The notes under the pieces: generated by a model
The model's database searches: none
Seen by the model: the letters and a program-made list of their open reading frames with translations, nothing else
Told to the model about the DNA's origin: nothing
Assembly: GCA_021299385.1 (NCBI GenBank)
Contig: JAJTGZ010000022.1
Coordinates: 1 to 32,250, forward strand
Reading direction: 5' to 3'
Length of the DNA stretch: 32,250 bases
From: Phycisphaeraceae bacterium
GTDB lineage: Bacteria > Planctomycetota > Phycisphaerae > Phycisphaerales > UBA1924
Part shown: positions 640 through 19,123 of the stretch, piece by piece
Position numbering within the stretch: the stretch's first letter is position 1
Layout of the letters: every line of letters begins with the position of its first letter
Program-made: the position numbers and the translations under genes

Positions 640-3600
640 ATGAAGCACTCAAAGATTCTGTCTCTCATCGCCGTGGCTGGCCTGGCAACGAGCCTCTCGG
701 CTGCACCTCGTGAGAGCGTTACGTTCACGATGGTCCCCTCGCAGGGGTTGATCAGCGACGCGGATACGACCACGCTGACGGCCACTTTCGCCGGCGGCGA
801 CGGTGCCGGGGCGTATAACGCGACGTACCTGACGGTTTCGGGGAGCATCACCAAGTTGATCGATGCCACGCAGCACAGTGAGGCGGCGATCCTCATCACG
901 CCCCCGTGGAACACGATCACCTTCGCACTGGACGACGGCGCGCCCCCAACGGGTGCCAACCCTGGCCCGCAGCAGAACATCACGCTAGCGAATGTCAACG
1001 TCGACGGCACAGCCACGGCCCCGGCGACGCGGACCTTCACCGTTGCGGCTGGTGATACCGTCCGCAACATCCGTTTCTCGGCCGTGGGCACCGGGCGCAC
1101 GGCACACCCGACGGACAACTTGAACGTCAACCCGCTGAGCCGGGCAAGGTTCCAAATCGTTGCCCCCAATGGCGTAACAATCAGTACCATCGTTCAGCCG
1201 TGGGGGGATTCAACCCAGTCGTCGAGCACCGCCGAGGCGACCGCGTCTATGAACGAGACCATTACGTCCAGCGGAGGGACCTGGACGCTGCGCGCTTGGG
1301 ACACCAGCGACTTTCCCGGCGTTGACAGCACCCTGCAGAATGTAACGCTCTCGCTTCTATCTACCCCCACGCTCCCCTCGCCGGTCGTCCCCACGCCCAC
1401 GTTGGTCGACTACACCTTTGTGAGTGCCAGCGACACGATCAACTTCCCCGGCGAGGTCAAGTGGTTCTCGGTTGTCAACCCAGTCGTCCTCTCAGGGACC
1501 AGTGGCCAAGCCCTTCATATCGACACCGAAGGGTCGATTACAGCCCCGACGGTCAACGACACCGCAGCGGCCATCTTCAATGCCAACGGGTGGCTGGTTG
1601 CCAGCGATAGCTTCGACGGGACGGATTCACTCGCATCCTTCTCTTTCGGGGGGGGCTCGCGTCCGGGACCGGGCAACGGCCTGCCCTATGACGGGCGCGA
1701 TGGGGCCCTCCCACCCGGCACCTACTACGTTGCTGTCGTAGGCGGCGACCTTGCTATCAATCCCAACAGTCCGTTCGGCGTCGTCGGCACCTCCGCAGAG
1801 ATCGCCGGGACGGTCAAGCTCAACGCCCGCTTCATCCCGAACACCGCTGCCGAGCCGCCGGCTGATGCGACACAGATCATTCTGACTGATGGCGTTTGGA
1901 GCACGGTCTCCAAGGCCCTGCCAGCCGGGGGGACGGCGTGGTTCTTCTTTGACCTGCCCGTCATGCCCAGTACCAGCGTCCTGCACATCGATACCGAAGG
2001 GTCCACGCTCGTGCCAGTCAACGACACAGCCATCGCGCTCTACCGCTACCCCGGCGGGCAGGTTATAAACCAGGATAACAACGATGGCACCGACCTGCTC
2101 TCGGCACTCTCCCGCGGCCCCGCCCGGACCGCTGACTTAAACATCGGCTGGTACAGCGACTCAGGCGTCCGTTACAACCGGCGCGATGGATTGGTCACGG
2201 AACTGAGCTCTCCCTCGGGCCGGGCCTCTCGCACCTACGTTGCCGTCATCGGTGGTGATGCCGCCACGGCTGACCCGGCAACGGCAACCTTCCAGCCCGG
2301 CTACATCATCCTCCCGCCCGTGGCCAACGCGGGTACCGTCAACCTCCGCATCCGGTACTACACCACCGGCGCACCAAGGAATCAAATCCCGCCGGCTACG
2401 CCCATCAACCTCGTCGATGGCGGGGAGTGGGCCACGGCCACCCAGCCTGTTGGCATCAGCGACGTCAAGTGGTTCACCTTCACCACCCCGAGCTTTGACC
2501 TGAGCAACACCGACGCACTGGACATCGATGTTGTGGGCACCAACCTGCTGCCCGACAACGACACAGACATCGGCCTCTACACCGCCACGGGCACGCTCAT
2601 CGACAGCGACGATAACGACGGCCCGGGCCAACTCAGCCAGCTTAGCTACGGCTCAGGCCGCCGTAAAAGCACGGGCGATGCCGTGCGATTTAAAGGGCAG
2701 GACGGGACCACATCAGGCAGCAACGGGAACATCGGGCCGAACACGACCTACTTCCTGGCCGTGGGCACCGGCACCAGCACCACGCACGCGAACTTATTTA
2801 GCACACAGCCCGGCGACGGCTCACTCAACGGGGGGAGCGTTACCGCACGCGTCCGCGCCTGGTCGTCGGGAGCGCCCACCGACCCCGCCGAGCCACCTGC
2901 AAGTGAAAACCTGGGCATCATCGGGACGACCACCCCGGGTGTCGAGGCCGTCGTCACTCGCACATACACTGTAACCGACGCCAGCGAGATCAGGTGGTTC
3001 TCGTTCACAATCAACGACGAGGTCAACGACACCAACACCTTCTATCTCGACATCGACACCGAAGGGACGGCCCCGGGCATCGTGCCGGTGTTGAGCAACA
3101 TTGCTGATACCCAGATCGGTCTGTACTCCAACACCGGTGTGCTCGTGGGCAGCGATGACGATGGCGGGAGCGACTCGCGCTCGGCCCTCTCCTTCGGCAG
3201 CACCTTCCCCGTGCGCCCACCGGTGCCGACGGGGGACTCCGCCCCTGGCGTCAACCGCGAAGGGCAGGACGGTCCGCTCGTGGCTGGCACCTACTACCTG
3301 TGCGTTGCAACCTTCTTTACGACCTTCGACGACGTGGACTTCGGCGTCTCACCCCCGATCGGCCTACCCGAAATCAACGGCATCCGCGTCGTCAACCTGC
3401 GCACAAACCTACCGGGCCGGGCCTGCCCCAACCCCAGCAATGTCTCCGGGCCGGGCCAGAACACCCTCGCGATCGACGATGAACTGACGGCTGACGACAT
3501 CATCGTCTTCCTCAACCGCTTCTTCGCCAACGACCTGGCCAGCAACGTCTCCGGCCCGGGCCAGAACACCTCCCAGCTCGACAACGAACTGACGGCCGAC

Positions 3601-3642
3601 GACATCATCGTCTTCCTCAACCGCTTCTTTGCAGGGTGCTAA
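640..3642 (+). CDS. Secreted multi-repeat PPC-like protein with C-terminal GC-type dockerin pair
   Basis: The 1000-residue product starts with a signal peptide (MKHSKILSLIAVAGLATSLSAAP) and is probably exported. After an N-terminal beta-rich region (about 30-245) come four repeats of roughly 150 residues (about 258-400, 410-578, 587-748, 758-925). Each has a KWF-type strand, L.IDTEG, a DT.IGLY strand, SDD.DG and a GTYYVAV-like strand. This order resembles bacterial pre-peptidase C-terminal (PPC) domains, which are non-catalytic. Residues 931-1000 hold two dockerin-like units, each with SGPGQ and LTADDIIVFLNRFFA, the second ending in GC. No catalytic domain is seen, so a structural, adhesive or surface role is inferred. 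AGG at 632-634 is a possible ribosome site. The stop is followed at once by a heptamer array shared with the two other dockerin genes. Confidence 0.85.
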   Translation: MKHSKILSLIAVAGLATSLSAAPRESVTFTMVPSQGLISDADTTTLTATFAGGDGAGAYNATYLTVSGSITKLIDATQHSEAAILITPPWNTITFALDDGAPPTGANPGPQQNITLANVNVDGTATAPATRTFTVAAGDTVRNIRFSAVGTGRTAHPTDNLNVNPLSRARFQIVAPNGVTISTIVQPWGDSTQSSSTAEATASMNETITSSGGTWTLRAWDTSDFPGVDSTLQNVTLSLLSTPTLPSPVVPTPTLVDYTFVSASDTINFPGEVKWFSVVNPVVLSGTSGQALHIDTEGSITAPTVNDTAAAIFNANGWLVASDSFDGTDSLASFSFGGGSRPGPGNGLPYDGRDGALPPGTYYVAVVGGDLAINPNSPFGVVGTSAEIAGTVKLNARFIPNTAAEPPADATQIILTDGVWSTVSKALPAGGTAWFFFDLPVMPSTSVLHIDTEGSTLVPVNDTAIALYRYPGGQVINQDNNDGTDLLSALSRGPARTADLNIGWYSDSGVRYNRRDGLVTELSSPSGRASRTYVAVIGGDAATADPATATFQPGYIILPPVANAGTVNLRIRYYTTGAPRNQIPPATPINLVDGGEWATATQPVGISDVKWFTFTTPSFDLSNTDALDIDVVGTNLLPDNDTDIGLYTATGTLIDSDDNDGPGQLSQLSYGSGRRKSTGDAVRFKGQDGTTSGSNGNIGPNTTYFLAVGTGTSTTHANLFSTQPGDGSLNGGSVTARVRAWSSGAPTDPAEPPASENLGIIGTTTPGVEAVVTRTYTVTDASEIRWFSFTINDEVNDTNTFYLDIDTEGTAPGIVPVLSNIADTQIGLYSNTGVLVGSDDDGGSDSRSALSFGSTFPVRPPVPTGDSAPGVNREGQDGPLVAGTYYLCVATFFTTFDDVDFGVSPPIGLPEINGIRVVNLRTNLPGRACPNPSNVSGPGQNTLAIDDELTADDIIVFLNRFFANDLASNVSGPGQNTSQLDNELTADDIIVFLNRFFAGC

Positions 3643-3712
3643 GGGAAGGTGTTAGGGATTAGGTGTTAGGTTTTAGGGCCGAGGGCTGAGGGCTGAGGGC
3701 CTAGGGTGAAGG
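3643..3712 (+). repeat. Heptamer array (NNNNAGG) x10 directly after a stop codon
   Basis: Starting at the first base after the TAA of the preceding dockerin gene, ten consecutive 7-mers all end in AGG: the first is GGGAAGG, then TTAGG-type units, then GCCGAGG and GCTGAGG units, ending with GTGAAGG at 3706-3712. Phase is never lost. Arrays with the same first unit and a similar unit order follow the other two dockerin genes (6724-6758 and 7899-7947). Confidence 0.85.
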
Positions 3713-3963
3713 TCTGGCCTCAGTCTGTTCGAGTTGGGTTTGTGTATGGTGTGTGTTCTAACCTCTCCCCGGCGGGGCGGGTCCGGGGAGGTATTGGCCG
3801 AGGGGCTGCCGGCGGAGAGATTCCGGGCCTGCGTAACTCTTGCAGAAAATTCTTTTGGCAACCTTCCAAGAGGGGGTTTTATGCTGTAAACTTCCACTCG
3901 TCAGCCCGACCGCCTCGGCAATGTTGCCCCGGCCACGCCGAGCGAACTCGATTGGGGAGCGCG
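3713..3963 (+). other. Intergenic leader before the propeller gene
   Basis: The reading frame of the next gene is open through this stretch, but it contains no signal peptide or domain, and a true signal peptide begins at 3964. I therefore treat it as untranslated. GGGGAG at 3954-3959 is a good ribosome binding site for the ATG at 3964 or 3967. Confidence 0.5.
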
Positions 3964-6723
3964 ATGATGAATTCTTGTATGACGGTGTGTAACAGCCGGG
4001 GGTTTAGGCGAGGGGTTGGCGTGGTGGGGGGATGGATCAGGGCGATTGCGCTGGTAGTGGTGGTGCTTGCCGGGTATAGCCGGGCGGAGGCCCAGTGCCC
4101 GGCGGGGTGGCTCGAGGGGCAGGGCTGGTGGGGTGTGAACGGCGAAGTCAACGCGGTGGCGGTCCTGCCTGGAGGTGACGTTATCGCGGGCGGCGCATTC
4201 ACCACCGCCGGCAACCTACCGGCGAACAAAATTGCTCGTTTTAACCAGGCTGCGGGTTTGTGGTCGCCTCTTGGGAGCGGACTGAGCGGCGGAGACGTCT
4301 GGGCCCTGGTGGTCCTGCCGGGTGGAGACGTGATCGCGGGCGGAGTGTTTACCACCGCCGGGGGCGTGTCGGCGAGCCGCATCGCCCGGTTCAACACGGC
4401 CACGGGTGTCTGGTCGGCACTGGGGAGCGGGACGAATAGCGGTGTCTACGCCCTGGCGGTCCTGCCGGGCGGGGACGTGCTCGTGGGTGGCGACTTCACC
4501 ACCGCCGGGGGCGTGGTGGTGAACAACATCGCCCGGTACAACCCGATGACGGGCGTCTGGTCGGCACTGGGGAGCGGGACCAGCGGCGGCGTCCGGGCTC
4601 TGGCGGTCCTGCCGGGCGGCGACGTGATCGTGGGAGGCTTCTTCACCACCGCCGGGGGCGTGCCGGCGAGCTCCATCGCCCGGTACAACCCGACCACGGG
4701 CGTGTGGTCGGCACTCGGAGGGGGGACTAGCGGCGGGGTCTCCGCCCTGGCGGTCCTGCCGGGTGGGAACGTACTCGTGGGCGGCAGTTTCACTACCGCC
4801 GGGAGTGTTCCTGCGAACCGTATTGCGCGCTACAACATTACTACTGGGGTCTGGTCGAGCCTGGGGAGCGGGGTGAACAGCACAGTTTCTGCTCTGGTGG
4901 CCCTACCCGGTGGGGACGTACTCGTAGGGGGGTACTTTACCTCTGCCGGGGGCGCGCCAGCGAATTTTGTCGCCCGCTGTAACCCGACCACGGGCGTCTG
5001 GTCGGCCTTGGGCAGTGGGGTGAATAGTGGATTGTCATTCCCCAGTGTCAGGGCCCTAGCAGTCTTGCCAGGTGGCGATGTGATTTTGGGCGGGTTTTTC
5101 GATAGCGCCGGGGGCTTGTTCCCAAACCGGATTGCACGCTACAACCCGTCTACGGGCGCGTGGTCGACACTGGGGAGGGGGGTAAATTGGCATGTCTATA
5201 CGCTGGCGCTCCTCCAGAATGGCGAATTGATGGTGGGTGGACTCTTCAGCAGCGTCAGGGACGTGCCGGTAAACCGGATCGCCCGCTACAACCCAGCAAC
5301 GGGCGCATGGTCCTCCCTCGGAAGTGGGATAAGCGGGTTGAGCGGAACGGGCAACGGACCACTGGTGCAAGGCCTTGCAGTCTTACCAGATGGCGATGTG
5401 ATCGTCGGGGGCAACTTCACCAACGCCGGTGGCGTGCCGGCAAACAACATCGCCCGCTATAACCCGGCGACGGGCGTGTGGTCGGCCCTGGGCAGTGGGG
5501 TAAGTAGCGCTAACTTTGCGACCCCCCTCGCCAAAGCCTTGGCGGTCTTGCCTAGTGGCGACCTGATCGTGGGGGGCAGATTCAGCACGGCCGGTGGCGT
5601 TCCAGCAAACAACATTGCCCGTTACAACTTTTCTACAGGGGTGTGGTCAGCCCTGGGCACCGGGGTGAATAGTGTCGTCGACTCCATGGTGGTACTACCC
5701 AATGGGCACGTGCTCGTAGGCGGGCTGTTTACCACCGCCGGGGGGGTATCGTCGCAAGGGATAGCCCGCTATAACCCCGTTACAGGCGTATGGTCGGCGC
5801 TGGGAAGTGGCGTGGGCGGGCAGAATGCCTACGTCGCTTCCTTTGCAGTCCTTCCTGGTGGGGATGTGCTTGTGGGCGGCTATTTCTTCACAGCGGGGAA
5901 CTTGCCGGCGAACGGAATCGCGCGATACAACCCGTCTACGGGTGTGTGGTCGGCCGTAGGAAGCGGGGTTAGCTGGCCGATCCCTTACATTACCCTCGCC
6001 ATGGTGCTCTTGCCTGGTGGAGATGTGATCATGGGCGGCACCTCCATCAATGGTGGAAACGCGATCGCTCGCTATAGCCCGGCTACGGGTGTTTGGTCGG
6101 CACTGGGCAGCGGGGTGGGACATAACGTGTTCACACTTGCACTCCTGCCAGGCGGCGATGTGATCGCGGGCGGGAGTTTCAGTCAGGCTGGTGCTTTCCC
6201 CACAATGTACCTTGCCCGCTACACCTTCGGCACACCCGCCCCAACCATCGCCACGCACCCCGTGCCGCAGAGCGCGTGTGTCGCAGGCTCGGCTGCGTTC
6301 GCCGTGACCCCCGCCGGCACTGGCCCGTTCACCTACCAGTGGCGAAAGGGGGTCGTCGCTATCAACGCAACGACCAACCCATCCGCGGCCACGGCCACGC
6401 TCACGCTGGCGAACGTCCAGGCCGGGGATGCGGGGAGTTATGACTGTGTTGTCAGCACGCCGTGCGGGAGCGTGACGAGCAACGCCGTGAGCCTCACGGT
6501 TGCGTCGTGCGCCTGCGGCCTCAGCGACGTCGCTGGCCCGGGTCAATCCGTCGGCAGCGACAGCGTCCTGACGGCCGATGACATCATCGTCTACCTCAAC
6601 TGGTTCTTTGCCGGTGATACGCGGGCGGACGTGGCCGGGCCTGGGCAGAGCAGCGTGCCGGATAGCCAGTTCACCGCCGACGACATCATCGTGTTCTTGA
6701 ACAGGTTCTTTGCGGGGTGTTGA
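3964..6723 (+). CDS. Secreted 14-repeat beta-propeller-like protein with Ig-like domain and GC-type dockerin pair
   Basis: The chosen start gives 919 residues. ATGs at 3964 and 3967 both follow GGGGAG (spacing 4 and 7) and lead into a signal peptide ending near SRAEAQC. The body has 14 tandem repeats of about 49 residues (about 147 bp) of the form ALAVLPGGDVIVGG.F.TAGG...IARYNP.TGVWSALGSG, which look like four-strand propeller blades, so two seven-bladed propellers are plausible. Repeats 6, 8 and 9 carry longer loops and repeat 13 is shortened. An Ig-like domain follows (YQWRKG ... DAGSYDCVVSTPCG), then two dockerin units (residues 849-919) ending FFAGC. No catalytic residues are visible; glycan or protein binding at the surface is an inference. 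Starting at 3706 would add an implausible N-terminus. Confidence 0.85.
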   Translation: MMNSCMTVCNSRGFRRGVGVVGGWIRAIALVVVVLAGYSRAEAQCPAGWLEGQGWWGVNGEVNAVAVLPGGDVIAGGAFTTAGNLPANKIARFNQAAGLWSPLGSGLSGGDVWALVVLPGGDVIAGGVFTTAGGVSASRIARFNTATGVWSALGSGTNSGVYALAVLPGGDVLVGGDFTTAGGVVVNNIARYNPMTGVWSALGSGTSGGVRALAVLPGGDVIVGGFFTTAGGVPASSIARYNPTTGVWSALGGGTSGGVSALAVLPGGNVLVGGSFTTAGSVPANRIARYNITTGVWSSLGSGVNSTVSALVALPGGDVLVGGYFTSAGGAPANFVARCNPTTGVWSALGSGVNSGLSFPSVRALAVLPGGDVILGGFFDSAGGLFPNRIARYNPSTGAWSTLGRGVNWHVYTLALLQNGELMVGGLFSSVRDVPVNRIARYNPATGAWSSLGSGISGLSGTGNGPLVQGLAVLPDGDVIVGGNFTNAGGVPANNIARYNPATGVWSALGSGVSSANFATPLAKALAVLPSGDLIVGGRFSTAGGVPANNIARYNFSTGVWSALGTGVNSVVDSMVVLPNGHVLVGGLFTTAGGVSSQGIARYNPVTGVWSALGSGVGGQNAYVASFAVLPGGDVLVGGYFFTAGNLPANGIARYNPSTGVWSAVGSGVSWPIPYITLAMVLLPGGDVIMGGTSINGGNAIARYSPATGVWSALGSGVGHNVFTLALLPGGDVIAGGSFSQAGAFPTMYLARYTFGTPAPTIATHPVPQSACVAGSAAFAVTPAGTGPFTYQWRKGVVAINATTNPSAATATLTLANVQAGDAGSYDCVVSTPCGSVTSNAVSLTVASCACGLSDVAGPGQSVGSDSVLTADDIIVYLNWFFAGDTRADVAGPGQSSVPDSQFTADDIIVFLNRFFAGC

Positions 6724-6758
6724 GGGAAGGGGTTAGGTTTGAGGGCCGAGGGCCGAGG
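6724..6758 (+). repeat. Heptamer array (NNNNAGG) x5 directly after a stop codon
   Basis: Five units follow the TGA of the propeller gene without a gap: GGGAAGG, GGTTAGG, one TTTGAGG and two GCCGAGG. The order of unit types matches the arrays at 3643-3712 and 7899-7947. Confidence 0.85.
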
Positions 6759-6776
6759 GACGGCAGGATCTAGCCT

Positions 6777-6795
6777 GGCCGGGTATGGCCCGGCC
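6777..6795. terminator. Hairpin between convergent genes, possible bidirectional terminator
   Basis: GGCCGGG at 6777-6783 pairs perfectly with CCCGGCC at 6789-6795 around a five-base loop. It lies between the 3' ends of the propeller gene (plus) and the anti-sigma gene (minus, stop at 6800). There is no T run on either side, so intrinsic termination is uncertain. Confidence 0.4.
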
Positions 6796-6799
6796 GGGT

Positions 6800-7231
6800 C
6801 TAGGTTGGCTGCCGGTAGACCATCACCAGCCTGCGGCCGTCGAGTTCGTGGCGGACTTCGGTCATGAATGAGCGGATGAGCATCAGGCCCCGGCCGCTGG
6901 TTTTTTCGATGTTCTCGTCGAGGGTGGGGTCGGGGATGGCCGAGGGGTTGTAGCCGGGGCCTTGGTCGGTGATGGTGATCTCGATGTGGGCGGCGTGGAC
7001 GTCGTAGGTGAGTTCGACGGGCCTGGGTTCGGGGAGGTCTTTGTGCCCGTGGCAGAAGGCGTTGACGATCCCTTCTTCGAGTGCGAGGCGCACGGCGAAC
7101 TTGGCCGCGTCTGAGTAGGCGTAGCGGTCCATGCAGGCCAGGAGTGCTTCCTCGGCACGGTCGATCTCGGGCCTGGCGTTGGCAAGGCTCAGCCGGGCGT
7201 GGTCGGGATGATCGGCGCGGGTCGGCGGCAT
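6800..7231 (-). CDS. RsbW/SpoIIAB-like anti-sigma factor serine kinase (HATPase_c_2)
   Basis: The 143-residue protein is a single GHKL ATP-binding domain of the anti-sigma/serine kinase type. The N-box is EEGIVNAFCHGH (about 51-62), the G1 motif is DQGPGYNP and the G2 box is SGRGLMLIRSF. Family members bind a sigma factor or phosphorylate a STAS-domain antagonist in a partner-switching cascade in the cytoplasm. A STAS gene lies 85 bp upstream on the same strand, which supports that pairing. No sigma factor or PP2C phosphatase is present in the window, so the target is unknown. No clear Shine-Dalgarno precedes the ATG, and the first dozen residues are not conserved family sequence. Confidence 0.88.
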   Translation of the reverse strand: MPPTRADHPDHARLSLANARPEIDRAEEALLACMDRYAYSDAAKFAVRLALEEGIVNAFCHGHKDLPEPRPVELTYDVHAAHIEITITDQGPGYNPSAIPDPTLDENIEKTSGRGLMLIRSFMTEVRHELDGRRLVMVYRQPT

Positions 7232-7316
7232 CGTCGTGTGCGAGAGTGCCGGCCGTGCGCTGCCAGGCGGGTGAGGGGGATCGGGTGAGCGGGGTTGAGC
7301 GGGCGTGGGGGTTGGT

Positions 7317-7676
7317 TTACTTGAAGCTCAGGCGTGCCTTGTCGGCGTTGTCGTGGATCTCAAAGAGTTTGTTGAGTTTGGTGATCTGGAAGACCTGGTA
7401 AATGTTGGGATCGATGTTGGACAGGCGGAGCTGGCCCTTGAGCGTGCGGACGCGGTTGTTGATGGTGATGAGCGTGCCCAGGGCTGCCGAGGAGAGGTGG
7501 TCAACGTCGGTGAAGTTGATGAGCAGGCGCGGTGCGGGCTCGGCGTCGATGATGGCCCTGATCTCTTCGCCGATCTGCTGGATATTGGCCTCGTCGAGGA
7601 TATTGCGGTCGCGGAACTGGACCTCGACGATGGCGCCGTCGCGTTTGACCTTCAGGCGGGAATCACTGGCTGGCAT
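7317..7676 (-). CDS. STAS-domain anti-sigma factor antagonist (SpoIIAA/RsbV-like)
   Basis: The 119-residue product starting MPASDSRLKV is one STAS domain. The motif VDHLSSAALGTLI (from residue 58) carries Ser62 and Ser63 at the place where SpoIIAA-type proteins are phosphorylated. The frame stays open upstream to 7754, but the extra 26 residues are proline-rich and unlike the family, so the inner ATG is preferred. It is probably cotranscribed with the anti-sigma kinase gene 85 bp downstream, forming a partner-switching pair. The terminator-like hairpin at 7814-7841 separates it from the upstream dockerin gene on the same strand. Confidence 0.87.
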   Translation of the reverse strand: MPASDSRLKVKRDGAIVEVQFRDRNILDEANIQQIGEEIRAIIDAEPAPRLLINFTDVDHLSSAALGTLITINNRVRTLKGQLRLSNIDPNIYQVFQITKLNKLFEIHDNADKARLSFK

Positions 7677-7813
7677 AGGGGTTCTCGTCAGGGGGCGGAC
7701 GGAGGGAGTGTAGCCGGGGTGGGGGGAATGGGCGATGGGGGTAGAAATGGTCAAATGGTCAACTGAGGGCGTGGCTTGGGCGAGGCAGCTTGGGTGGGTG
7801 GTGGTCCTGTGAA

Positions 7814-7841
7814 AACCCCCGGGCCAGGTGGCCCGGGGGTT
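7814..7841 (-). terminator. Intrinsic terminator of the DUF839 dockerin gene
   Basis: AACCCCCGGGCC (7814-7825) pairs perfectly with GGCCCGGGGGTT (7830-7841) around a four-base loop. Read on the minus strand the stem ends in TTTT, giving a short U run. It lies about 110 bp past the stop of the minus-strand dockerin gene and upstream of the STAS gene, so it should insulate the two. Confidence 0.7.
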
Positions 7842-7898
7842 GGTTTGTAACTGGTTTCAGGTATTGGCTTTGGTACGAGGACGGTGGTTTCTGTATTC

Positions 7899-7947
7899 CC
7901 TCGGCCCTCGGCCCTAAAACCTAACACCTATCCCCTAACCCCTTCCC
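7899..7947 (-). repeat. Heptamer array (NNNNAGG) x7 directly after a stop codon
   Basis: On the minus strand, seven 7-mers ending in AGG start at the first base after the TAA of the DUF839 dockerin gene. Unit order is GGGAAGG, GGTTAGG, then GGATAGG, TGTTAGG, TTTTAGG and two GCCGAGG, closely matching the array at 3643-3712. Confidence 0.85.
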
Positions 7948-9783
7948 TTAGCACCCCGCGAAGAAGCCGTTGAGGAAGACGATGATGTCGTCGGCGGTGA
8001 ACTGGGTGTCGGGTGTGGAGCTCTGGCCCGGGCCGGCGATGTTGGCGCGGGCATCGGCGGCGAAGAACCAGTTGAGGAAGACGATGATGTCGTCGGCGGT
8101 CAACTGGCCGTCGACCTGGGCGGTGTTCTGGCCCGGGCCTGCGATGTCGATCTCACAGGCCTTAACGGCGTCGGGGAAGAAGGCGGCCATAAGCTGCCCA
8201 CCCTCGACGAGGCTGTTGGTGGAAATGCCGTAGTGGGCCTGCATGCACAGCAGGTACCACCCCGGTCCGAGGATGTCGCGTGCATCGAAGATGCCGCTGG
8301 TCTCTTCGTCCTGGGTCAGGAACTTGGAGCTGCCGGAGATGAAGCGTGCCGAATCAGAGATACCGACTTCTTTGATCGCGTCGGTCTTGGTGTCGTACTG
8401 CCACATACGCCCGAGGCGGGGGTTGTTCCCGACGTCTTCCTGGATGTAGATCAGCCCGTTGCGGCTGACGGACATGTTGTCCATCATCTCGACGGTGGTC
8501 AGGTCGCTGCCGCTGGAGATCGATGAGGTGGTGGCGGCAAGGCGCTGGCCGTCGACGAGGATCGAGACGGTGCCGCCGAGCTCGGGCTGGGTGATGTCGG
8601 TGAACTTGACCTTCCAGAGCCGGCTCGCTGAGCCGAAGCCGTTGGTGGTGAGGAAGTAGCAGACGGAGGGGTCCTTGAGGTCCCACGCGGCGTCCTCTGG
8701 GCGGAGCCAGTTCATGACGCCGTTGGCGTTGGTCTCGGCCTGGAGTTGGGCGCCGGTTTTGTTGGTCAGGTCGGAGTACTGGTACATGGTGAAGGTTGCG
8801 GACTCGACGAGGGTGCCGTTGCCGAGGGCGTTGGCGGAGCTCTCGACCTTCTGGCCTGCGGTGTTGGTTGTTGTGCCGTTGATGACCATGCCCCAGACGC
8901 GGCCGTTTGTCAGGCCTGCGCGTTCGATGTCGTTGCCGGTGTCGGTCTTGGTGCCGATGTAGAACAGGACCTCGCCGGGGGTCGCGTCATCGGGGCCGAC
9001 GACGATGGTTTTGGCCTGCGGATAGGGGCTGGCGACGCTGTTTTCCCAGGACCAGCGGCCCAGGGCGGGGAGCTGGTAGGTTGTGCCGGCCTCGGGGCCA
9101 GAGAGGACATAAACTGCGGCGCGGCCGTCGGCACCGATCTCCTCGCCGTTCATGAACAGGCGGGCGTCGGTGCCCAGGTTACCGAAGCGGTAGGCGGAGG
9201 GGAGAGCAAGGTCGCCCGAGCAGTGGCGTCCGAGCACGAGGTTGGAGGTGGTGAGCAGGTTGCTCGAGTTGTAGGTGGTGAAGGTGTTGGTTGTGGAGTT
9301 CCAGAGCTTCAGCGTGTCGCTTGCGCTCGCGCCGCCGGTGACGAGCAAGTTGGTCGGGTCGGCGTTGATGCGCCAGCGGGAGACGTGCGAACCGCGTAGG
9401 CCATAGGCCTGCACCGGGCCGACGGTGTTGCCGATCTCGTGGTTAACCAGGAGGGTGAAGGTGCCTTCGGCGATGTCCTGCTCGCTGCGATAGGCGCCCA
9501 TCCCATCGGGGATGCCGACAAGGCGGTAGGGAGAATTGGTCTGGGGGTTCCAGTTGCCGCTCGCGTCGCGCTGGAGGAGGGCATAGGTCTCATCGGGCGT
9601 GCCCGCCGTGGTGGTCAGGCCGTTGCCATTGCTGATGATCGAGACGAACTTGACCCCGGTTGCGCCCGTGGCGGGGAGCATGTACGGCGACTGCAGCGTG
9701 CTCGGGCCCGTGATGGCCTGGGCGAGGACGCTGGCGGTCATGCCGGCTGAACAAACAAGTGCCAGTGCAGTGAACTTTGACAT
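7948..9783 (-). CDS. Secreted DUF839/PhoX-like protein with C-terminal GC-type dockerin pair
   Basis: The 611-residue product begins MSKFTALALVCSAGMTASVLAQ, a clear signal peptide, and AAAGGA stands 8 bases before the ATG. The longer frame running to 10020 adds no plausible N-terminus. The body resembles the DUF839/PhoX-like propeller family: NHEIGN near the N-terminus, GNDIERAGLTNGRVWGM in the middle, DAAWDLKDPSVCYFLTTNG, and ILGPGWYLLCMQAHYG near the end. PhoX members are metal-dependent phosphatases, but I cannot confirm that the metal ligands are kept, so activity is open. Two dockerin units (GPGQ ... LTADDIIVFLNWFFA, then FTADDIIVFLNGFFAGC) form the C-terminus. A terminator-like hairpin follows downstream. 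Confidence 0.8.
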   Translation of the reverse strand: MSKFTALALVCSAGMTASVLAQAITGPSTLQSPYMLPATGATGVKFVSIISNGNGLTTTAGTPDETYALLQRDASGNWNPQTNSPYRLVGIPDGMGAYRSEQDIAEGTFTLLVNHEIGNTVGPVQAYGLRGSHVSRWRINADPTNLLVTGGASASDTLKLWNSTTNTFTTYNSSNLLTTSNLVLGRHCSGDLALPSAYRFGNLGTDARLFMNGEEIGADGRAAVYVLSGPEAGTTYQLPALGRWSWENSVASPYPQAKTIVVGPDDATPGEVLFYIGTKTDTGNDIERAGLTNGRVWGMVINGTTTNTAGQKVESSANALGNGTLVESATFTMYQYSDLTNKTGAQLQAETNANGVMNWLRPEDAAWDLKDPSVCYFLTTNGFGSASRLWKVKFTDITQPELGGTVSILVDGQRLAATTSSISSGSDLTTVEMMDNMSVSRNGLIYIQEDVGNNPRLGRMWQYDTKTDAIKEVGISDSARFISGSSKFLTQDEETSGIFDARDILGPGWYLLCMQAHYGISTNSLVEGGQLMAAFFPDAVKACEIDIAGPGQNTAQVDGQLTADDIIVFLNWFFAADARANIAGPGQSSTPDTQFTADDIIVFLNGFFAGC

Positions 9784-10034
9784 GGATCGATCCTTTGAAA
9801 AGAGTGGAGATGGGTGGCCGACGGTGTGTGATCGCGGATACCCGCGAACGGATCGATGATACATGAAGGTCTTGGGAGTGGTGTAAACGCTGAGCAAAGT
9901 CTGCGTCAAGGTTCCGTTATGAGTGCGCAAGGAATTTGCAAAGACCTCTTTCACCGCTTGCACCGGCGTATCTTGAGCATGGCTCTTGTTCACGGGGGAT
10001 GTCTTGACACACACGCACACCAGAGGAAACCACC

Positions 10035-11252
10035 ATGCTGCCCAAAGTCATGCTGCCCAAAGTCAACGCGTTGATCGTCCCTGCCGCATTCATGCTTGCC
10101 CTGTCGGTGGTGCAGACCGCGCTTGCGCAGGTCTACCCCATCCGTACCGAGCGGGACGGGATGCCCAACTGGGAACCTCTGCCGGCCAAGACAGACTATG
10201 ACAAGCGCAACGCGTATGCGTTGATACACCTGGTCGCGACCGACGAGCGGTTCAAGCCGCAGTTCATGGTTGATCCGCTCATCGGCAACGCCTGGGGTCT
10301 GACGATCCGGCCCGCGGGCAAGGGTGGGCACTGGTGGATCACCAACGCCAACAGCGGCACGACCACAACGTACGTGGGCGATGCGCCGGGGCACCCATTC
10401 GGGCAGGACGACCTCAAGGTCGTGCCGATCCCCGTGGGCAAACTCCACGCCGTGCACCCTGAGCTCAAGAGCCAGCCCACCGGGCAGGTGTATGCGGGGT
10501 GGAACAAGGGTGAGTTCGTCACCGAGGCCGATGGGGTCAAGGGTGAGAGCAAGTTCATCTTTGTTACCCTCGACGGGACCATCAGCGGGTGGACCGACGG
10601 GCAGAAGAACGCCGTGACCATGATCGACGTCGGCGAAGAGGGTGCGATGTTCACGGGCGTGGCCATCACTGAGCACGACAAGGGCAACCGTCTCTACGCG
10701 TGCGACTTCAACACCGGGGTGGTGCGTGTCTATGGCCCGGACTGGAAGCCCGTCGAGACCGCCGGCAAGTTCAAGGACCCGAAGATTGACGACGGGTACG
10801 CGATTTACAACATGCACTACCTCAATGGGAAGCTCTACGCCACCTGGGGTCGCATCGCCGGCGAGCCGGGGGACGCCGAGCCTTACCCCGGCTACGGGTT
10901 CGTCAGCGAGTTTGACACCGAGGGGAACCTTCTCCGCTCACTGGAGCACCGACGCGAACTCAACGCACCCTGGGGCCTGGTCATCGCGCCCAAAGACTTC
11001 GGCCCGCTGAGCGGCCGGTTGCTGGTGGGGAACTTCGGCGATGGGCGCGTGCTGGCATACAACCTTGAGACGGCAAAGTTCGACGACTATCTCCGTGGCA
11101 TCGACGGCAAGCCCGTTGAGATCGACGGCCTCTGGGGGATGCTCTTTGGCAACGGCGAATCGCTCGGCTACCGCAACCACCTTTACTACGCCGCTGGGCC
11201 GGAGGTCGAGAACGAAGGCGTCTTTGGCAAACTGGTGCCGTTGTTCCCGTGA
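10035..11252 (+). CDS. TIGR03118-type secreted protein, function unknown
   Basis: The product is 405 residues with a hydrophobic export signal at about 11-31 (ALIVPAAFMLALSVVQTALA). AGAGGAAA precedes the ATG. Motifs recall the TIGR03118 family: NAWGLTIRPAG, WITNANSGTTTTYVGD, DGTISGWTDG, FTGVAI, RLYACDFN, APWGLVIAP, LLVGNFGDG and a closing NHLYYAAGPEVENEGVFG, which reads like a repeated-strand propeller. The family has no established biochemical role. The first ten residues are an exact 15-bp tandem duplication (MLPKV twice), so translation could also begin at 10050. The gene is divergent from the DUF839 dockerin gene and converges on a glycosyltransferase gene, with octamer arrays between. 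Confidence 0.8.
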   Translation: MLPKVMLPKVNALIVPAAFMLALSVVQTALAQVYPIRTERDGMPNWEPLPAKTDYDKRNAYALIHLVATDERFKPQFMVDPLIGNAWGLTIRPAGKGGHWWITNANSGTTTTYVGDAPGHPFGQDDLKVVPIPVGKLHAVHPELKSQPTGQVYAGWNKGEFVTEADGVKGESKFIFVTLDGTISGWTDGQKNAVTMIDVGEEGAMFTGVAITEHDKGNRLYACDFNTGVVRVYGPDWKPVETAGKFKDPKIDDGYAIYNMHYLNGKLYATWGRIAGEPGDAEPYPGYGFVSEFDTEGNLLRSLEHRRELNAPWGLVIAPKDFGPLSGRLLVGNFGDGRVLAYNLETAKFDDYLRGIDGKPVEIDGLWGMLFGNGESLGYRNHLYYAAGPEVENEGVFGKLVPLFP

Positions 11253-11263
11253 GGGGCTGGGGA

Positions 11264-11327
11264 GGCAGAGTTGCACAGTGGCACAGTTGCAAAGTGGCAA
11301 AGTGACATAGTTGCAGAGTGGCAAAGT
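11264..11327 (+). repeat. Octamer array (KGCANAGT) x8, left arm of inverted pair
   Basis: Eight phase-locked 8-mers start 11 bases after the stop of the TIGR03118-type gene, with GCA and AGT almost constant and the first and fifth bases variable (one unit is GACATAGT). The first four units are repeated in the same order on the other strand at 11372-11403. Confidence 0.85.
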
Positions 11328-11363
11328 TGTCGAGCGACGGAAATGAATCCCCGTTACCCCAGC

Positions 11364-11403
11364 ACTCTGTCACTTTGCAACTGTGCCACTGTGCAACTCT
11401 GCC
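11364..11403 (-). repeat. Octamer array (KGCANAGT) x5, right arm of inverted pair
   Basis: Read on the minus strand, five octamers begin 15 bases after the stop of the glycosyltransferase gene. The segment 11371-11403 is a perfect 33-bp inverted copy of 11264-11296, so the region can form a long hairpin with a 74-base loop between two convergent genes. It could act as a two-way terminator. Confidence 0.85.
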
Positions 11404-11418
11404 ACTTCACCCCCCGCC

Positions 11419-12666
11419 CTACCGCACCTGCCGCACATACTCCCGCCCGGCCCACTTGACCGGCACGCCCTTGACCAGCTCCCGTGCCGTGCCCCAGAGC
11501 AGCCACGCAACCACGCCCGCGGCAACCGGGTAGGCCACCACTGCCGACATCGGCGAACGACCACGCAGAAGGCAGAGTGTGATCGCCAGTGCGTAGGCCA
11601 GCAGGGCCACCACCCCGGCTGTGGCGCACACCCAGGCGATCGACGTGCTGGCCGGCTCGGGCAGGGGCGCGCCGCTGCCGCGTGCGAGGCCGATGGTGAT
11701 GACCAGCAGCGCCAACGGCATCAGCAGCACGCCGAAGACGAGGTTCAGGATCGCGTACCGACGCAGCCGGGCTGGCTTGCGGTGCGCAAGCTCGGCATAA
11801 ATCCGCCGCCACCCGCTGGTGAACGCCGGCCAGGTGTCGTACATCCGGCACAAGAGCATCCCGTCGGCAAAGGCGACCTCGCTCATCACCCCTTGCCCCT
11901 TGACAAGGCTCGCCAGCTGCAGGTCCTCCAGCAGCGCATCGCTGAGCGCGGCGTGCCCGCCGAGGTTTTCGTAAACATCCCGGCGTATGAGCATGAACTG
12001 CCCGTTGGCCAGGCTGCGCGTGCTGGTGGTGCGGTTGACGCGGGCTGGTGGGTATTGGCGCAGGAGTTCAAGCCCCGCCGCGGGCTGGATGAGGCGCTCG
12101 AACCACGTCCGCCGCGTCAGCGTGCTCAGCAGGCTGAGCATCGCGGCGTTGCGGTGCAGCAGCAGCTTGACGCTCGCACGCACGCACCGGGCGTCAAAGA
12201 GCGTGTCAGCGTCGGCGAACAGCAGCAAGCCGGCGCTCCGCGCAGCTGGCGCGGCAGACACCCCCTCCCACACGGCGTTGACCTTGCCAGCCCAACCGGG
12301 CCGCCACTGGCCCACGGCGTGGAGGGTGAACCGCGCGTCGTCGCCCAGCACTTGGCGCAGCACGGCTTCGGTGTCGTCGGTGCAGCGGTCGAGCGCAAAG
12401 ACGACATGCAGCTGCGGGTAGTCCTGCGCCAGCAGTGTGCGGGCGAGTTCGCCGATGCCGTGCGCCTCGTTGTGCGCGGGGATGATGATGCAAACGCTCG
12501 GCCAGGTGGCGGGGTCGGGCAGGTCCAGCGCTTGCCGAGCCGTCAGGATGCTCCGCCCGGCACTGGCCGAGTGCCAGATGACCCCGGCCCAATACAGACC
12601 CCCGGCAACGACGACAGAGGTGAGCGCGATCAACGAAGCATCGATAAAAATATCGTGGAGATTCAT
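11419..12666 (-). CDS. Membrane-associated family 2 glycosyltransferase (HpnB-like)
   Basis: The 415-residue protein starts MNLHDIFIDASLIAL, with an N-terminal membrane segment and three or four hydrophobic segments in the last 130 residues. The GT-A domain shows WPSVCIIIPAHNEAHGIGE, a DRCTDDT donor region, GWAGKVNAVWEG, the metal-binding FADADT, and ALLEDLQLA as the likely acceptor/base region. This pattern matches GT2 enzymes such as HpnB or CrtQ-like proteins, which glycosylate lipids at the membrane. The substrate cannot be read from sequence, and no hopanoid or carotenoid genes lie nearby. The frame extends to 12768, but the extra residues translate an intergenic heptamer repeat, so the inner ATG is preferred. 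Confidence 0.82.
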   Translation of the reverse strand: MNLHDIFIDASLIALTSVVVAGGLYWAGVIWHSASAGRSILTARQALDLPDPATWPSVCIIIPAHNEAHGIGELARTLLAQDYPQLHVVFALDRCTDDTEAVLRQVLGDDARFTLHAVGQWRPGWAGKVNAVWEGVSAAPAARSAGLLLFADADTLFDARCVRASVKLLLHRNAAMLSLLSTLTRRTWFERLIQPAAGLELLRQYPPARVNRTTSTRSLANGQFMLIRRDVYENLGGHAALSDALLEDLQLASLVKGQGVMSEVAFADGMLLCRMYDTWPAFTSGWRRIYAELAHRKPARLRRYAILNLVFGVLLMPLALLVITIGLARGSGAPLPEPASTSIAWVCATAGVVALLAYALAITLCLLRGRSPMSAVVAYPVAAGVVAWLLWGTARELVKGVPVKWAGREYVRQVR

Positions 12667-12692
12667 CGCTACAACGCGTGCCGGGCGGGGGA

Positions 12693-12740
12693 GTTGAGGG
12701 CTGGGGGTGAAAGTTGGAACATGGAAGTTGGAAGTTGGGG
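12693..12740 (+). repeat. Degenerate heptamer tract (GTTGGAA-type) between divergent genes
   Basis: Units GTTGGAA, CATGGAA, GTTGGAA and GTTGGGG run in phase at 12713-12740, with more degenerate units (GTTGAGG, GCTGGGG) before them. Unlike the other arrays it lies at the 5' sides of two divergent genes rather than behind a stop codon. Confidence 0.6.
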
Positions 12741-12768
12741 ATAGAGGTTGCTGCCGTATCCTGAACAT

Positions 12769-15444: not shown

Positions 15445-18400
15445 TTACGAGCACCCCAGGCTCGCCCCGCAGTTCAGGCACTTGTGGCACGTGCCGTTGC
15501 GCACCGTGATCGTCCCGCAGCTATCGCACGGCGGGCCGTCGCCCGACTGCTCCATCGCCTTGGCCAGCATGTTCTCGCTGGCCGAGAGCGTCCCTGTGCT
15601 GCGGACCAGATCGGTCTCTTCGTCGATCGTTGTAACTGTCCTCTCGACGACCATGTGCTTGTGGGTGTGCTGGCGGGATACGCCGAGCGTCATCGACGCG
15701 CTGCCACCCTCGGCACCACTTCCGCTACCACCCCCACCATCATCGTGCCCATCATCGGCGAAAGGGAGCGGGTGCTCCGTGCGTTGACGGTCGGCCTTCT
15801 GGGTGCCCACGGCCGCGGCGATGCGGCGCGCCATCGGCTGTGCGTCGGCCTCGCCGCGCTGGTGGTCGCGCTTCGGTGCGTTGGCCTCGCGATAGCCTGG
15901 GATGAACTGCATCCCCATCCAGCGGAAGATGTAGTCCGTCAGGCTCTTGGCAAAGGGGATGTCGGCGTTCGTGGTCATGCCCGCCGGCTCGAAGCGCTGG
16001 TGCGTGAACTTGCCGACGAGGCTGCTGACGGGCACGCCGTATTGCAGCGCGACGCTCGTGGCCGTGCCCAGCGCGTCCATCAGCCCGCCGATGGTGCTCC
16101 CCTCCTTGGCCATCGTGATGAACAGCTCGCCGGGCATGCCGTCTTCATACAGCCCGACGGTCAAATACCCCTCGTGCCCGGCGACGTTGAACTTGTGGGT
16201 GATGCTCGCCCGCGTCTCGGGTAGCCGGCGGCGCATCGGGCGCTCGACAACCTTCTCGACCACCCGCTCGACGACCTTCTCAACCACCGCCGGCGCCGGG
16301 GCCTCTTCCTTCTTGTCCACCGTTGTGTTGAGCGGCTGGCTGAGCTTGCACCCATCGCGGTAGAGCGCGTTGGCCTTGATGCCCAGCTCCCAACTCCGCT
16401 GGTAGCACCACTTCATCTCCTGCACCGTCGCCGAGTTGGGCAGGTTGATCGTCTTGCTGATCGCCCCGCTGATAAATGGCTGTGCCGCGGCCATCATGCA
16501 GATGTGCCCATCGGGCTTGATGAACCGCACGCCATACTTGCCGCAGGTATTGGCGCAGTCAAAGACCGGCAGGTGCTCGTCCTTGATGTGCGGCGCGCCC
16601 TCGATCGTCTGCCGGCCACAGATGGTGTCGTTGAGCGCATCGATCTGCGACCGGCTCAGGCCGAGCTGCTGCAGGAGGTTGAACCCCGCGTCCCCCTTCG
16701 CCTCGGCCGGGTCTAGACCCAGCTTGCTCAGCAGCGCATCGCCCAACGCCCAGGCGTTGAACGCAAACCCAATCTCAAAGACCCCCGGCAGCGTGTCGGT
16801 GATCTTCTTGAGGTCTCCCTCGGCGAAGCCTTTGCTCCGCAGCAGAGCGCTGAGCGTCTGCGTGCCGGTGCCGTTGCCGTTGGTGCTGCCGTTGGTGTTG
16901 GTGCCGTTGCTGGTTGTGTTTGTGCCGGGGATCGGCACGTCCAGGCTCAGCGTCCCGAGCAGATAGACCATCATCTCCTTGATCTGCTTCTCGCTGTACC
17001 CAAGCGCTTCAAGAGCTGGACGCACGCTCGCGTTGGCGATCTTGAAGTACCCGCCCCCGGCCAGTTTCTTGAACTTCACCAGCGCAAAGTCAGGCTCGAT
17101 CCCCGTCGTGTCGCAGTCCATCAGCAGCCCGATCGTCCCCGTCGGGGCGATCACCGAGACCTGCGCGTTGCGGTACCCGTGCTTGAGGCCCAGTTCCAAC
17201 GCATCGTCCCACGCGGCTAAAGCGTGCTCGAGCAGCCCGCCGGCGTTCTTGACCAGCAGCCGGCCGCTCTTGAAAATCGCATGGTCGATCGGCACCGGGC
17301 GCGTGCGCGGGTTGATCCCCTCATACCTCGCGCTCTCGCGTGCCTCGCCGTGCGCGGCTAGGCGGTGGTTGCGGATCACGCGCAGCATGTTCTCGCGGTC
17401 ATCTGCAAACCCGGCGAACGCGCCGAGCTGCCCCGCCATCGCCGCGCTCATGCGGTAACTGCGCCCGGTCAAGATCGCCGACAGCGCGGCGCACACCGCG
17501 CGACCCTCGTCGCTGTCATACGCCAGCCCGGCCTGCATCAGCATCGCGCCCAAGTTGGCGTAGCCAAGCCCGAGCGTGCGGTAGCGGTAGCTCAGCCGTG
17601 CGATCTCCGCGGAGGGGAACGCCGCCATGAGCACGCTGATCTCAAGCACCACCGTCCACAGGTCGATGGCGTGCTCGTACCTCTCGATATCAAACTCGCG
17701 CGTCTTGGCGTCATAGAGCGTGATCAGGTTGATCGACGCCAGGTTGCACGCGGTGTTGTCCAAGAACATATATTCGCTGCACGGGTTGCTGGCATTAATC
17801 CGACCCGCGCTCGGGCACGTGTGCCAGGCGTTGATCGTGCTGTCGTACTGCATCCCAGGGTCTGCGCACCGCCACGCGGCGTACGCGATATCACCCCACA
17901 ACTGCCCCGCCTTGAACGTCCGCGCGACCTTCCCGCTCGTGCGGTACGTCGTGCTCCACTGCCCGTCGGCGGCGACCGCCTCCATGAACGCGTCGGGCAC
18001 GCGCACCGAGTTGTTGCTGTTCTGCCCGCTGACCGTCTGATAGCTCTCGCCGTTGAAGTCGTAGTCGAGCTTCAGGTTCATCTTCTCGCACGCCGAGGCG
18101 ATGTCCTTGTCCGCCTTCTTGATCGCCTTAAGCCCCTCAACGAGCGCGGCGACCTTGATCTCCTCACGCACTTTCCAATTCACAAAGTGCTCGATGTCCG
18201 GGTGGTCCATGTCCAGGCAGACCATCTTGGCCGCCCGGCGGGTCGTGCCGCCGCTCTTGATCGCACCCGCCGCACGGTCGCCGATCTTCAGCCAGCTCAT
18301 CAGCCCCGAGCTCTTCCCACCTCCGGCCAGGTGCTCGTTCTCGCCACGCAACTTGCTGAAGTTCGTACCCGTGCCCGACCCATACTTAAACAGACGCGCC

Positions 18401-19029
18401 TCACGCGTCCACAAGTCCATGATCCCGCCCTCGTTGACAAGGTCGTCATCGACACTCTGAATAAAGCACGCGTGCGGCTGCGGGTGCGTGTACGCGTCCT
18501 TGGCGAGCTCCACCTCGCCCGTCTTGGGGTTGACAATAAAGTGCCCCTGCGCAGGCCCCGTGATGCCGTAGGCAAAGTTCAACCCCGTGTTGAACCACTG
18601 CGGCGAGTTCGGCGCGGCGATCTGGTGCGTGAGCATGTATGCCAGCTCGTCATAAAACGCCTGCGCGTCCTCCTTGCTGTCAAAGTACCCGTGCGCTTCC
18701 CCCCACTGCCGCCAGCACCCGGCCAGACGGTGGATCACCTGCTTGGCCGACTTCTCAGGCCCGGTCACCACCTTCCCGCTCGCGTCCACCTCGTTCTCGC
18801 CGGTAACCGCATCCTGCCCGGCCTTCTTGACAGGCACGCCGGCCTTGCGGAAGTACTTGCTGACCATGATGTCGGTGGCCAACTGGCTCCACGTCTCAGG
18901 CACCGCCGCGTCGTCCATCTTGAAGACAACGCTCCCATCAGGGTTGGTGATCTTGGACGATCGCGTCGTCCACTTAACGGTGGAGAAGGGGTCGGTGCCG
19001 GCGGTGGTGAACTTGCGGGTGATCTTCAT
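15445..19029 (-). CDS. nrdJ: Vitamin B12-dependent (class II) ribonucleotide reductase
   Basis: The 1194-residue enzyme reduces ribonucleotides to deoxyribonucleotides using adenosylcobalamin. ATG 19029 follows AAGGG at 9 bases; the open frame upstream translates the neighbouring gene's antisense. Family signatures are NSPQWFNTGL, LFKYGSGTGTNFSKLRGENE, SGGTTRRAAKMVCLDMDHPDIEHFVNWK, the catalytic NPCSE (about residue 416) with TACNLASINL, and PTGTIGLLMDCDTTGIEPDFALVKFKKL. A low-complexity Asn/Thr/Gly linker and an alternating VVEK/VVER stretch are inserted before the C-terminal part. The protein ends in a zinc-ribbon-like CDSCG...CHKCLNCG, expected to relay electrons or bind metal. It probably shares a transcript with dcd upstream, under an NrdR-box promoter. 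No cobalamin riboswitch was seen in front of it. Confidence 0.95.
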   Translation of the reverse strand: MKITRKFTTAGTDPFSTVKWTTRSSKITNPDGSVVFKMDDAAVPETWSQLATDIMVSKYFRKAGVPVKKAGQDAVTGENEVDASGKVVTGPEKSAKQVIHRLAGCWRQWGEAHGYFDSKEDAQAFYDELAYMLTHQIAAPNSPQWFNTGLNFAYGITGPAQGHFIVNPKTGEVELAKDAYTHPQPHACFIQSVDDDLVNEGGIMDLWTREARLFKYGSGTGTNFSKLRGENEHLAGGGKSSGLMSWLKIGDRAAGAIKSGGTTRRAAKMVCLDMDHPDIEHFVNWKVREEIKVAALVEGLKAIKKADKDIASACEKMNLKLDYDFNGESYQTVSGQNSNNSVRVPDAFMEAVAADGQWSTTYRTSGKVARTFKAGQLWGDIAYAAWRCADPGMQYDSTINAWHTCPSAGRINASNPCSEYMFLDNTACNLASINLITLYDAKTREFDIERYEHAIDLWTVVLEISVLMAAFPSAEIARLSYRYRTLGLGYANLGAMLMQAGLAYDSDEGRAVCAALSAILTGRSYRMSAAMAGQLGAFAGFADDRENMLRVIRNHRLAAHGEARESARYEGINPRTRPVPIDHAIFKSGRLLVKNAGGLLEHALAAWDDALELGLKHGYRNAQVSVIAPTGTIGLLMDCDTTGIEPDFALVKFKKLAGGGYFKIANASVRPALEALGYSEKQIKEMMVYLLGTLSLDVPIPGTNTTSNGTNTNGSTNGNGTGTQTLSALLRSKGFAEGDLKKITDTLPGVFEIGFAFNAWALGDALLSKLGLDPAEAKGDAGFNLLQQLGLSRSQIDALNDTICGRQTIEGAPHIKDEHLPVFDCANTCGKYGVRFIKPDGHICMMAAAQPFISGAISKTINLPNSATVQEMKWCYQRSWELGIKANALYRDGCKLSQPLNTTVDKKEEAPAPAVVEKVVERVVEKVVERPMRRRLPETRASITHKFNVAGHEGYLTVGLYEDGMPGELFITMAKEGSTIGGLMDALGTATSVALQYGVPVSSLVGKFTHQRFEPAGMTTNADIPFAKSLTDYIFRWMGMQFIPGYREANAPKRDHQRGEADAQPMARRIAAAVGTQKADRQRTEHPLPFADDGHDDGGGGSGSGAEGGSASMTLGVSRQHTHKHMVVERTVTTIDEETDLVRSTGTLSASENMLAKAMEQSGDGPPCDSCGTITVRNGTCHKCLNCGASLGCS

Positions 19030-19068
19030 GGAGCGGGGCCCTTGAGATAAACGGTGGCGTGTGATGAA

Positions 19069-19105
19069 CGGGGCAATAGGGAATAGGCAATCGGCAATTG
19101 GCGCG
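19069..19105 (+). repeat. Heptamer array (TNGGNAA), left inverted arm flanking the four-helix-bundle gene
   Basis: The units GGGGCAA, TAGGGAA, TAGGCAA, TCGGCAA and TTGGCGC run in phase. The 37-bp arm matches the reverse complement of 19551-19587 at 35 of 37 positions and lies 40 bp upstream of the nrdJ start. Confidence 0.85.
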
Positions 19106-19123
19106 AAAGGTGCTTGTGTTTGG

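Follow-up and report, generated by a model that had tools for sequence, protein, structure and literature searches.

Heptamer arrays at the stop codons of three dockerin genes

We analyzed short tandem arrays that lie directly behind stop codons in a 32,250-nt contig (JAJTGZ010000022.1; hereafter the window) of a Phycisphaeraceae bacterium, whose draft genome comprises 2.63 Mb in 111 contigs with 65% G+C. The window holds just three genes encoding GC-type dockerins, that is, two dockerin repeats ending in Gly-Cys. Genes 1, 2, and 3 (Table 1) all show this arrangement and match NF041540 with 49, 68.6, and 62.4 bits, respectively, against a cut-off of 29. Each is followed, from the first base after its stop codon, by an in-register array of NNNNAGG heptamers. 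An earlier note on this DNA had described arrays of 10, 5, and 7 units behind the three dockerin stops, and direct reading of the sequence bore out their positions, as well as the shared GGGAAGG start and the similar unit order. At least five in-register AGG from +1 appeared in none of 200,000 shuffles made for each of the three 3′ flanks. In 800 kb of the genome we found 37 NNNNAGG arrays, compared with none in the reversed control; this own-genome sample consists of stretches picked around dockerins and arrays, and its densities are not genome averages.

Array 3 is accompanied by two further elements, an inverted partner and a terminator-like hairpin, and the region spanning all three (7950–7800) is predicted to fold with a z of −4.2. 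The hairpin is separate from the array itself. Neither array 1 nor array 2 forms a G+C-rich hairpin with a T-run, and these two arrays have no such inverted partner.

Table 1. Dockerin genes, arrays, and associated elements of the window.
Feature	Position	Strand	Remarks
Gene 1, 1000 aa, C-terminal GC-type dockerin (3448–3639)	640–3642	+	
Array 1, 10 NNNNAGG heptamers from the base after TAA	3643–3712	+	GGGAAGG TGTTAGG GATTAGG TGTTAGG TTTTAGG GCCGAGG GCTGAGG GCTGAGG GCCTAGG GTGAAGG
Gene 2, beta-propeller repeats and GC-type dockerin (6520–6720)	3964–6723	+	Start uncertain, open frame back to 3706
Array 2, 5 heptamers, directly behind TGA	6724–6758	+	GGGAAGG GGTTAGG TTTGAGG GCCGAGG GCCGAGG
Gene 3, 690 aa, GC-type dockerin (7951–8157)	7948–10020	−	
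Array 3, 7 heptamers, directly behind TAA	7899–7947	−	Read 7947–7899: GGGAAGG GGTTAGG GGATAGG TGTTAGG TTTTAGG GCCGAGG GCCGAGG
Degenerate inverted partner of array 3	7841–7883	−	C-rich on the sense strand of the gene; predicted to pair with array 3
Intrinsic-terminator-like hairpin (CCCCCGGGCCACCTGGCCCGGGGG) and TTTT	7812–7839	−	Downstream of array 3; from reading and folds
Octamer array (GGCAAAGT)	11264–11327	+	11 nt past stop of gene 10035–11252 (+); same class
Inverted octamer array	11363–11406	−	12 nt past stop of convergent gene 11419–12768 (−); pairs with 11264–11327
Heptamer array, AATGGGC-type	19554–19585	−	4 nt past stop of ORF 19590–20162 (−); same class

Arrays behind other genes and their placement

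We found that AGG arrays also lie 0–8 nt past the stops of unrelated genes, including about ten non-dockerin genes in the 800 kb, so that they do not occur only or mainly with dockerins. The array-preceding genes include those encoding a PilB/GspE-type ATPase, an S1-domain (rpsA-like) protein, AccB, AccD, ThyX, TsaB, and a glutamine amidotransferase, names that were judged by eye from the sequence, without database search. The proposal of the earlier note that the array is a 3′-UTR signal of a secreted protein class thus fails on specificity, as the stops of accB, accD, thyX, and the pilB-like and rpsA-like genes carry arrays and an inverted form adjoins the accC start.

For detection independent of the unit we used Tandem Repeats Finder (TRF), with genes called by a simple codon-usage gene finder that takes longest-ORF starts. 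Besides the own-genome sample, 339 kb from seven other genera were covered; the named relatives of the same genus and family are Phycisphaerales bacteria. The stretches of the relatives were selected for AGG arrays on either strand, which biases their density and leaves strand and position relative to genes unselected. Among noncoding arrays, periods 7 and 8 dominate and 6 and 9 are nearly absent; heptamers account for 33 of the 85 arrays of the own-genome sample and for 41 of 63 among the relatives, followed by octamers. In coding sequences, by contrast, periods 12 and 9 prevail, which is what a purge of frame-shifting units from genes would produce. The period autocorrelation stays at background within coding sequences and climbs at the stop. 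The units vary widely, with GGCATCA, TCACAGG, AGTCGCG, GGCAATC, AAGTGGCA, and others.

The position of the arrays was compared with a control in which each 7/8-mer array was moved at random inside its own spacer, with a stop-to-edge cut-off of 12 nt. A stop at the 5′ edge of the G-rich strand was seen 19 times in the own sample (5.1 expected), 13 times when dockerins were left out (4.2 expected), and 19 times in the seven other genera (5.4 expected). No such excess was found for stops at the 3′ edge (1 vs. 3.3, 1 vs. 3.1, and 3 vs. 2.2 expected, respectively). The arrays are, therefore, not equally common at random intergenic sites, and their G-rich strand faces away from the stop. Predicted starts gave no excess by the same test; on the antisense start side, the genome-wide count of the own sample was 1, with 1.2 expected. 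As longest-ORF prediction can be halted by the array itself, predicted starts were set aside for the putative start-side rule, which was read only from accC starts fixed by homology (MF.R.LIANRGEIA).

Three sequence-based readings were discarded. A defined GGAAG leader after the stop is not general, although array genes are G-rich at +1 to +5; its share was 27% vs. 6% in the relatives and 6% vs. 2% in own non-dockerins, with near-copies in one genome. The array is not a copied Gly-Cys-stop sequence, since TGTTAGG lies at a distance of 13 from TGCTAG, where 14 would keep the register. Nor does it serve as a tandem-stop safety device, as many units (GCCGAGG, GGCATCA, TCACAGG) hold no stop codon. 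As a separate observation, two genes (G000:C60, stops at 1492 and 2875) agree in their 3′ ends and both carry a TCTTTGAT octamer tail, which suggests a recent duplication.

Independent origins at orthologous gene ends

Up to 32 genomes from the genus, family, and order were searched for AccD and AccB. Stop-adjacent arrays were present in 2 of 29 genomes for accD and in about 6–7 of 30 for accB. Their units are unrelated between genera (GCCGAGG, GATCAAGG, TGAGGCT, AAGTTCCG, and CGGTCAG), and accD of another genus has a GCTGGTA array behind its stop. Since different genera carry unrelated units at the same orthologous accB stop, the arrays arise repeatedly, and it is at these gene ends that repeated independent origin is seen. 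With the same kind of run, built of unrelated words, found again and again at the gene ends of relatives, stop-abutting arrays are a general gene-border feature and do not mark any single protein family.

The spacer between accB and accC holds, in several genera, a G-rich array at the accB stop that is mirrored by an inverted array of the same family directly before the accC ATG. With the homology-fixed accC start, such an antisense array is found in about 8 of the 17 spacers that measure at least 70 nt. The size of this spacer ranges from 6 to 619 nt between genera, and in three genomes with spacers of ~520 nt it is bracketed by inverted arrays.

Dockerin genes throughout the genome

The genome encodes 48 GC-type dockerin matches, 47 of which could be scored past the stop. 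For each, 60 nt were compared with shuffles of the same flank, and an array was called at p ≤ 0.01 and its absence at p > 0.2. This yielded a clean bimodal split into 27 genes with an array and 20 clearly without, so the possibility that most dockerin genes lack the array does not hold; with random intergenic placement excluded as well, the association with gene ends stands. Array-bearing dockerin genes share a common unit order, i.e., a G-rich leader, GGTTAGG/TGTTAGG, TTTTAGG, and GCCGAGG.

Dockerins are strongly enriched in strict arrays (five exact AGG, searched in the whole genome), which follow 8 of 47 dockerin genes and 6 of ~1,750 other genes (Fisher p 3e-10); the latter total was projected from 801 kb with 547 predicted genes, and the dockerins are paralogues, so the eight are not independent events. 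Among same-genus dockerins of the metagenome-assembled genomes (MAGs) Prado162 and PN19_bin_20, 8 of 41 have stop-adjacent arrays, which consist of CATCAGC, GGAGCGAC, AGTGGCAC, or GGCCGAG units. As these differ from the units described above, the arrays arise anew; within the genus they have not been passed down together with the dockerin.

The repertoire of these secreted proteins is large, with 48 GC-type matches in 2.6 Mb and up to 119 in one same-genus genome. We also noted five neighboring genes (G061:C100, 36411, 38473, 43358, 56146, and 58737, minus strand) that encode a second two-unit, Cys-containing C-terminal domain (NEGDYNCFFNNLFLPC[ILV]*), each followed by the same GCCGAGG array; this is a second multi-copy C-terminal domain with such a tail.

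Origin and possible roles of the arrays

We favor the view that all these arrays belong to one genome-wide class of degenerate 7–8-nt tandem arrays, whose G-rich strand runs 5′ to 3′ out of the ORF. They have probably grown by slippage at coding borders and, in this genome, multiplied with the dockerin paralogues. Small slippage duplications would arise at gene borders, where coding sequence bounds them on one side. Inside ORFs, arrays with units of 7 and 8 nt would be purged because they shift the frame, and beside the stop they would be tolerated. A strand filter may be added by selection against Shine-Dalgarno (SD)-like G-rich repeats before starts and C-rich repeats after stops, leaving the G-rich array on the sense strand right after the stop and, in some spacers, its inverted form right before the next start. 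Lineage-specific units would then emerge again and again at the same genes, and the GGTTAGG/TGTTAGG/GCCGAGG family would have multiplied here with the 3′ ends of GC-dockerin paralogues, which would give the arrays their shared unit order and phase. Such tolerance would account for the repeat periods and the variety of units, as well as for the patchy occurrence of arrays at orthologous stops and the lack of a functional class.

Several points weigh against this explanation. Pure tolerance explains less well why arrays lie ~0–12 nt from the stop and not throughout the spacer. The strict dockerin enrichment (8/47 vs. ~6/1,750) exceeds what simple co-duplication would give in view of the weak clustering on the dockerin tree (see below). 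Finally, the antisense start-side rule seen at accC is absent from the genome-wide own set, in which starts are only predicted.

The main rival, which is possible though not likely, is a selected RNA element. The G-rich array, as a G-quadruplex or as a stem with an inverted partner, would protect the 3′ end, block read-through, or aid termination, and selection would keep it whatever its unit. REP elements near stops in E. coli are said to act as a 3′-end RNA element of this kind. In agreement with such a role, position and strand relative to the stop are fixed across many unrelated units, some arrays pair with an inverted partner that is followed by a terminator-like hairpin, and G3 quadruplex motifs occur in the 3′ flanks of 10 of the 27 array-bearing dockerin genes vs. 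2 of the 20 array-free ones. Yet those 20 genes do without an array, several of them carrying an ordinary hairpin/T-run in its place, most orthologous accD and accB stops have none either, and inverted arrays also precede starts. Moreover, the mean folding z of 3′ flanks is about equal for array-bearing (−1.34), array-free (−1.61), and control genes (−1.57). On these grounds we rejected a reading of the arrays as fold elements of the RNA; the only genes to stand out are those that have an inverted partner.

It seems unlikely that the last dockerin unit and the array form a mobile 3′ cassette, copied from one dockerin gene to another through gene conversion or template switching, as proposed in the earlier note. 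Part of this proposal withstood analysis. The last dockerin unit is alike among genes 1–3 (74–85% DNA identity), and genes 1 and 3 do look like a small copied 3′ cassette, with 85% identity in unit 2 and 91% in +1 to +35, compared with 48% upstream and 36% downstream. The homology of the 27 array-bearing dockerin genes likewise spans the dockerin and ~35 nt past the stop, with +1 to +35 similarity of 0.444 (0.295 against array-free genes) and background values past +36. Synonymous identity of the last unit is also higher (~0.68) than the 0.52 expected from codon usage. This excess, however, is the same in every class (array/array 0.684, array/none 0.687, none/none 0.679); array-bearing dockerins are no more alike in DNA than array-free ones, and the similarity of the last unit is, therefore, not a mark of the array. 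In addition, array presence clusters only weakly on the dockerin-domain tree (11 changes vs. 15.2 with labels shuffled, a count as low being reached in 12 of 500 shuffles), the similarity of arrays follows that of dockerins only faintly (Mantel r 0.18, p 0.04), and the same arrays follow genes without a dockerin. The tempting reading of the window as a dockerin-specific cassette is thus corrected.

Two further explanations concern inverted arrays. Complementarity between the ends of accB-accC spacers is 12.6 within a genome vs. 7.2 across genomes (permutation p 5e-5), and 7 of 17 spacers, whose two ends hold units of one family in opposite orientation, stand out. The shorter accB-accC spacers and the own accD-next spacer are predicted to form a single hairpin closing near both stop and ATG (z −2.3 to −4.4). 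Inverted stop/start pairs of 7/8-mers might represent a convergent device, repeatedly evolved with unrelated sequences, whose hairpin takes up the whole spacer, sets the upstream stop beside the downstream start (accB-accC, accD-next), and ties the translation of both genes or shields the spacer; unpaired arrays, such as those of window dockerins 1 and 2, would then be half-built or decayed. We hold this to be quite improbable. Slightly more doubtful still is a stop-to-start bridging hairpin, in which inverted arrays at both spacer ends would join the stop to the next start and couple translation. In the genome sample, only 6 of 160 co-directional spacers lie above the null's 99th percentile, with 1.6 expected and some of the six involving no arrays, and fully bracketed spacers are a minority; convergent gene pairs, where there is no start to be reached, carry such inverted arrays as well, and arrays 1 and 2 of the window have no partner.

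The notion that the arrays are due to chance, or are a compositional artefact arising from G-rich 3′ flanks or a single assembly, might be suggested by a draft genome of 65% G+C in 111 contigs, but is practically negligible in view of the shuffled and reversed controls, the bimodal split of the dockerin genes, and the same rule in other genomes.

Relation to known repeats

The closest known parallel is a set of G-rich, quadruplex-forming heptamers with a preference for four units, GGGAATC in Xanthomonas and GGGGA(C/T)T in Nostoc sp. PCC 7120, described by Rehm et al. (2015; PMC4692102). On the sense strand they prefer sites 0–50 nt from the stop or overlapping it, on the antisense strand sites just upstream of starts, and the genes they follow belong to all classes. 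Inverted pairs occur in Xanthomonas, and few of the repeats lie between divergent genes. The authors left the function open and mentioned polymerase slippage for heptamers (Rehm et al., 2015). The arrays reported here resemble them in being G-rich, of period 7, mostly outside genes, rare between divergent genes, in part arranged as inverted pairs, and on the sense strand near the stops of metabolic genes of all classes; an antisense array just upstream of a start is shared at accC. In contrast, a single order, and even a single genome, here contains many unrelated 7-/8-mer units, many lack GGG tracts and have only GG, and the arrays start at 0–12 nt. Unrelated units stand at orthologous stops, and one family is concentrated behind a multi-copy domain of secreted proteins. 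The trait of following all functional classes recurs (accB, accD, thyX, pilB-like, rpsA-like), yet with strong dockerin enrichment. Our arrays appear to obey the same placement rule, and many of their units need not form quadruplexes.

In marine Beggiatoaceae, TAACTGA heptamer direct repeats are mostly intergenic (MacGregor, 2015; PMC4679880). They are similarly located at gene borders, but mostly just upstream of start codons and with one fixed unit, whereas the present arrays lie mostly just downstream of stops and have many units. The short tandemly repeated repetitive (STRR) heptamers of heterocystous cyanobacteria form degenerate arrays with several families per genome, as observed here; beyond the Nostoc analysis mentioned above, we know of no stop-codon rule for them. 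REP/BIME elements of enterobacteria are abundant, often near stops, and can form RNA stems, but are palindromes of 20–40 nt moved by RAYT transposases, unlike the 7–8-nt units reported here, in which inspection revealed no single conserved palindrome. A literature search, with most subscription journals outside its reach, returned no paper on such arrays in planctomycetes. Our results extend a little-noticed placement rule of bacterial heptamers to the Phycisphaerales, independently of any one repeat sequence, and make it testable whether gene borders merely tolerate arrays with a strand filter or selection favors them.

Further arrays in the window

Apart from the dockerin genes, arrays of the same class were found in the window at two convergent stops and behind one further ORF (Table 1). 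The region between the convergent stops (11253–11418), with GGCAAAGT-type octamer arrays at both of them, is predicted to form one giant imperfect hairpin (z −13.7). About four GGCAATA-type heptamers lie at 19072–19102, where the gene context is ambiguous because ORFs 17365–19050 (+) and 15445–19260 (−) overlap.

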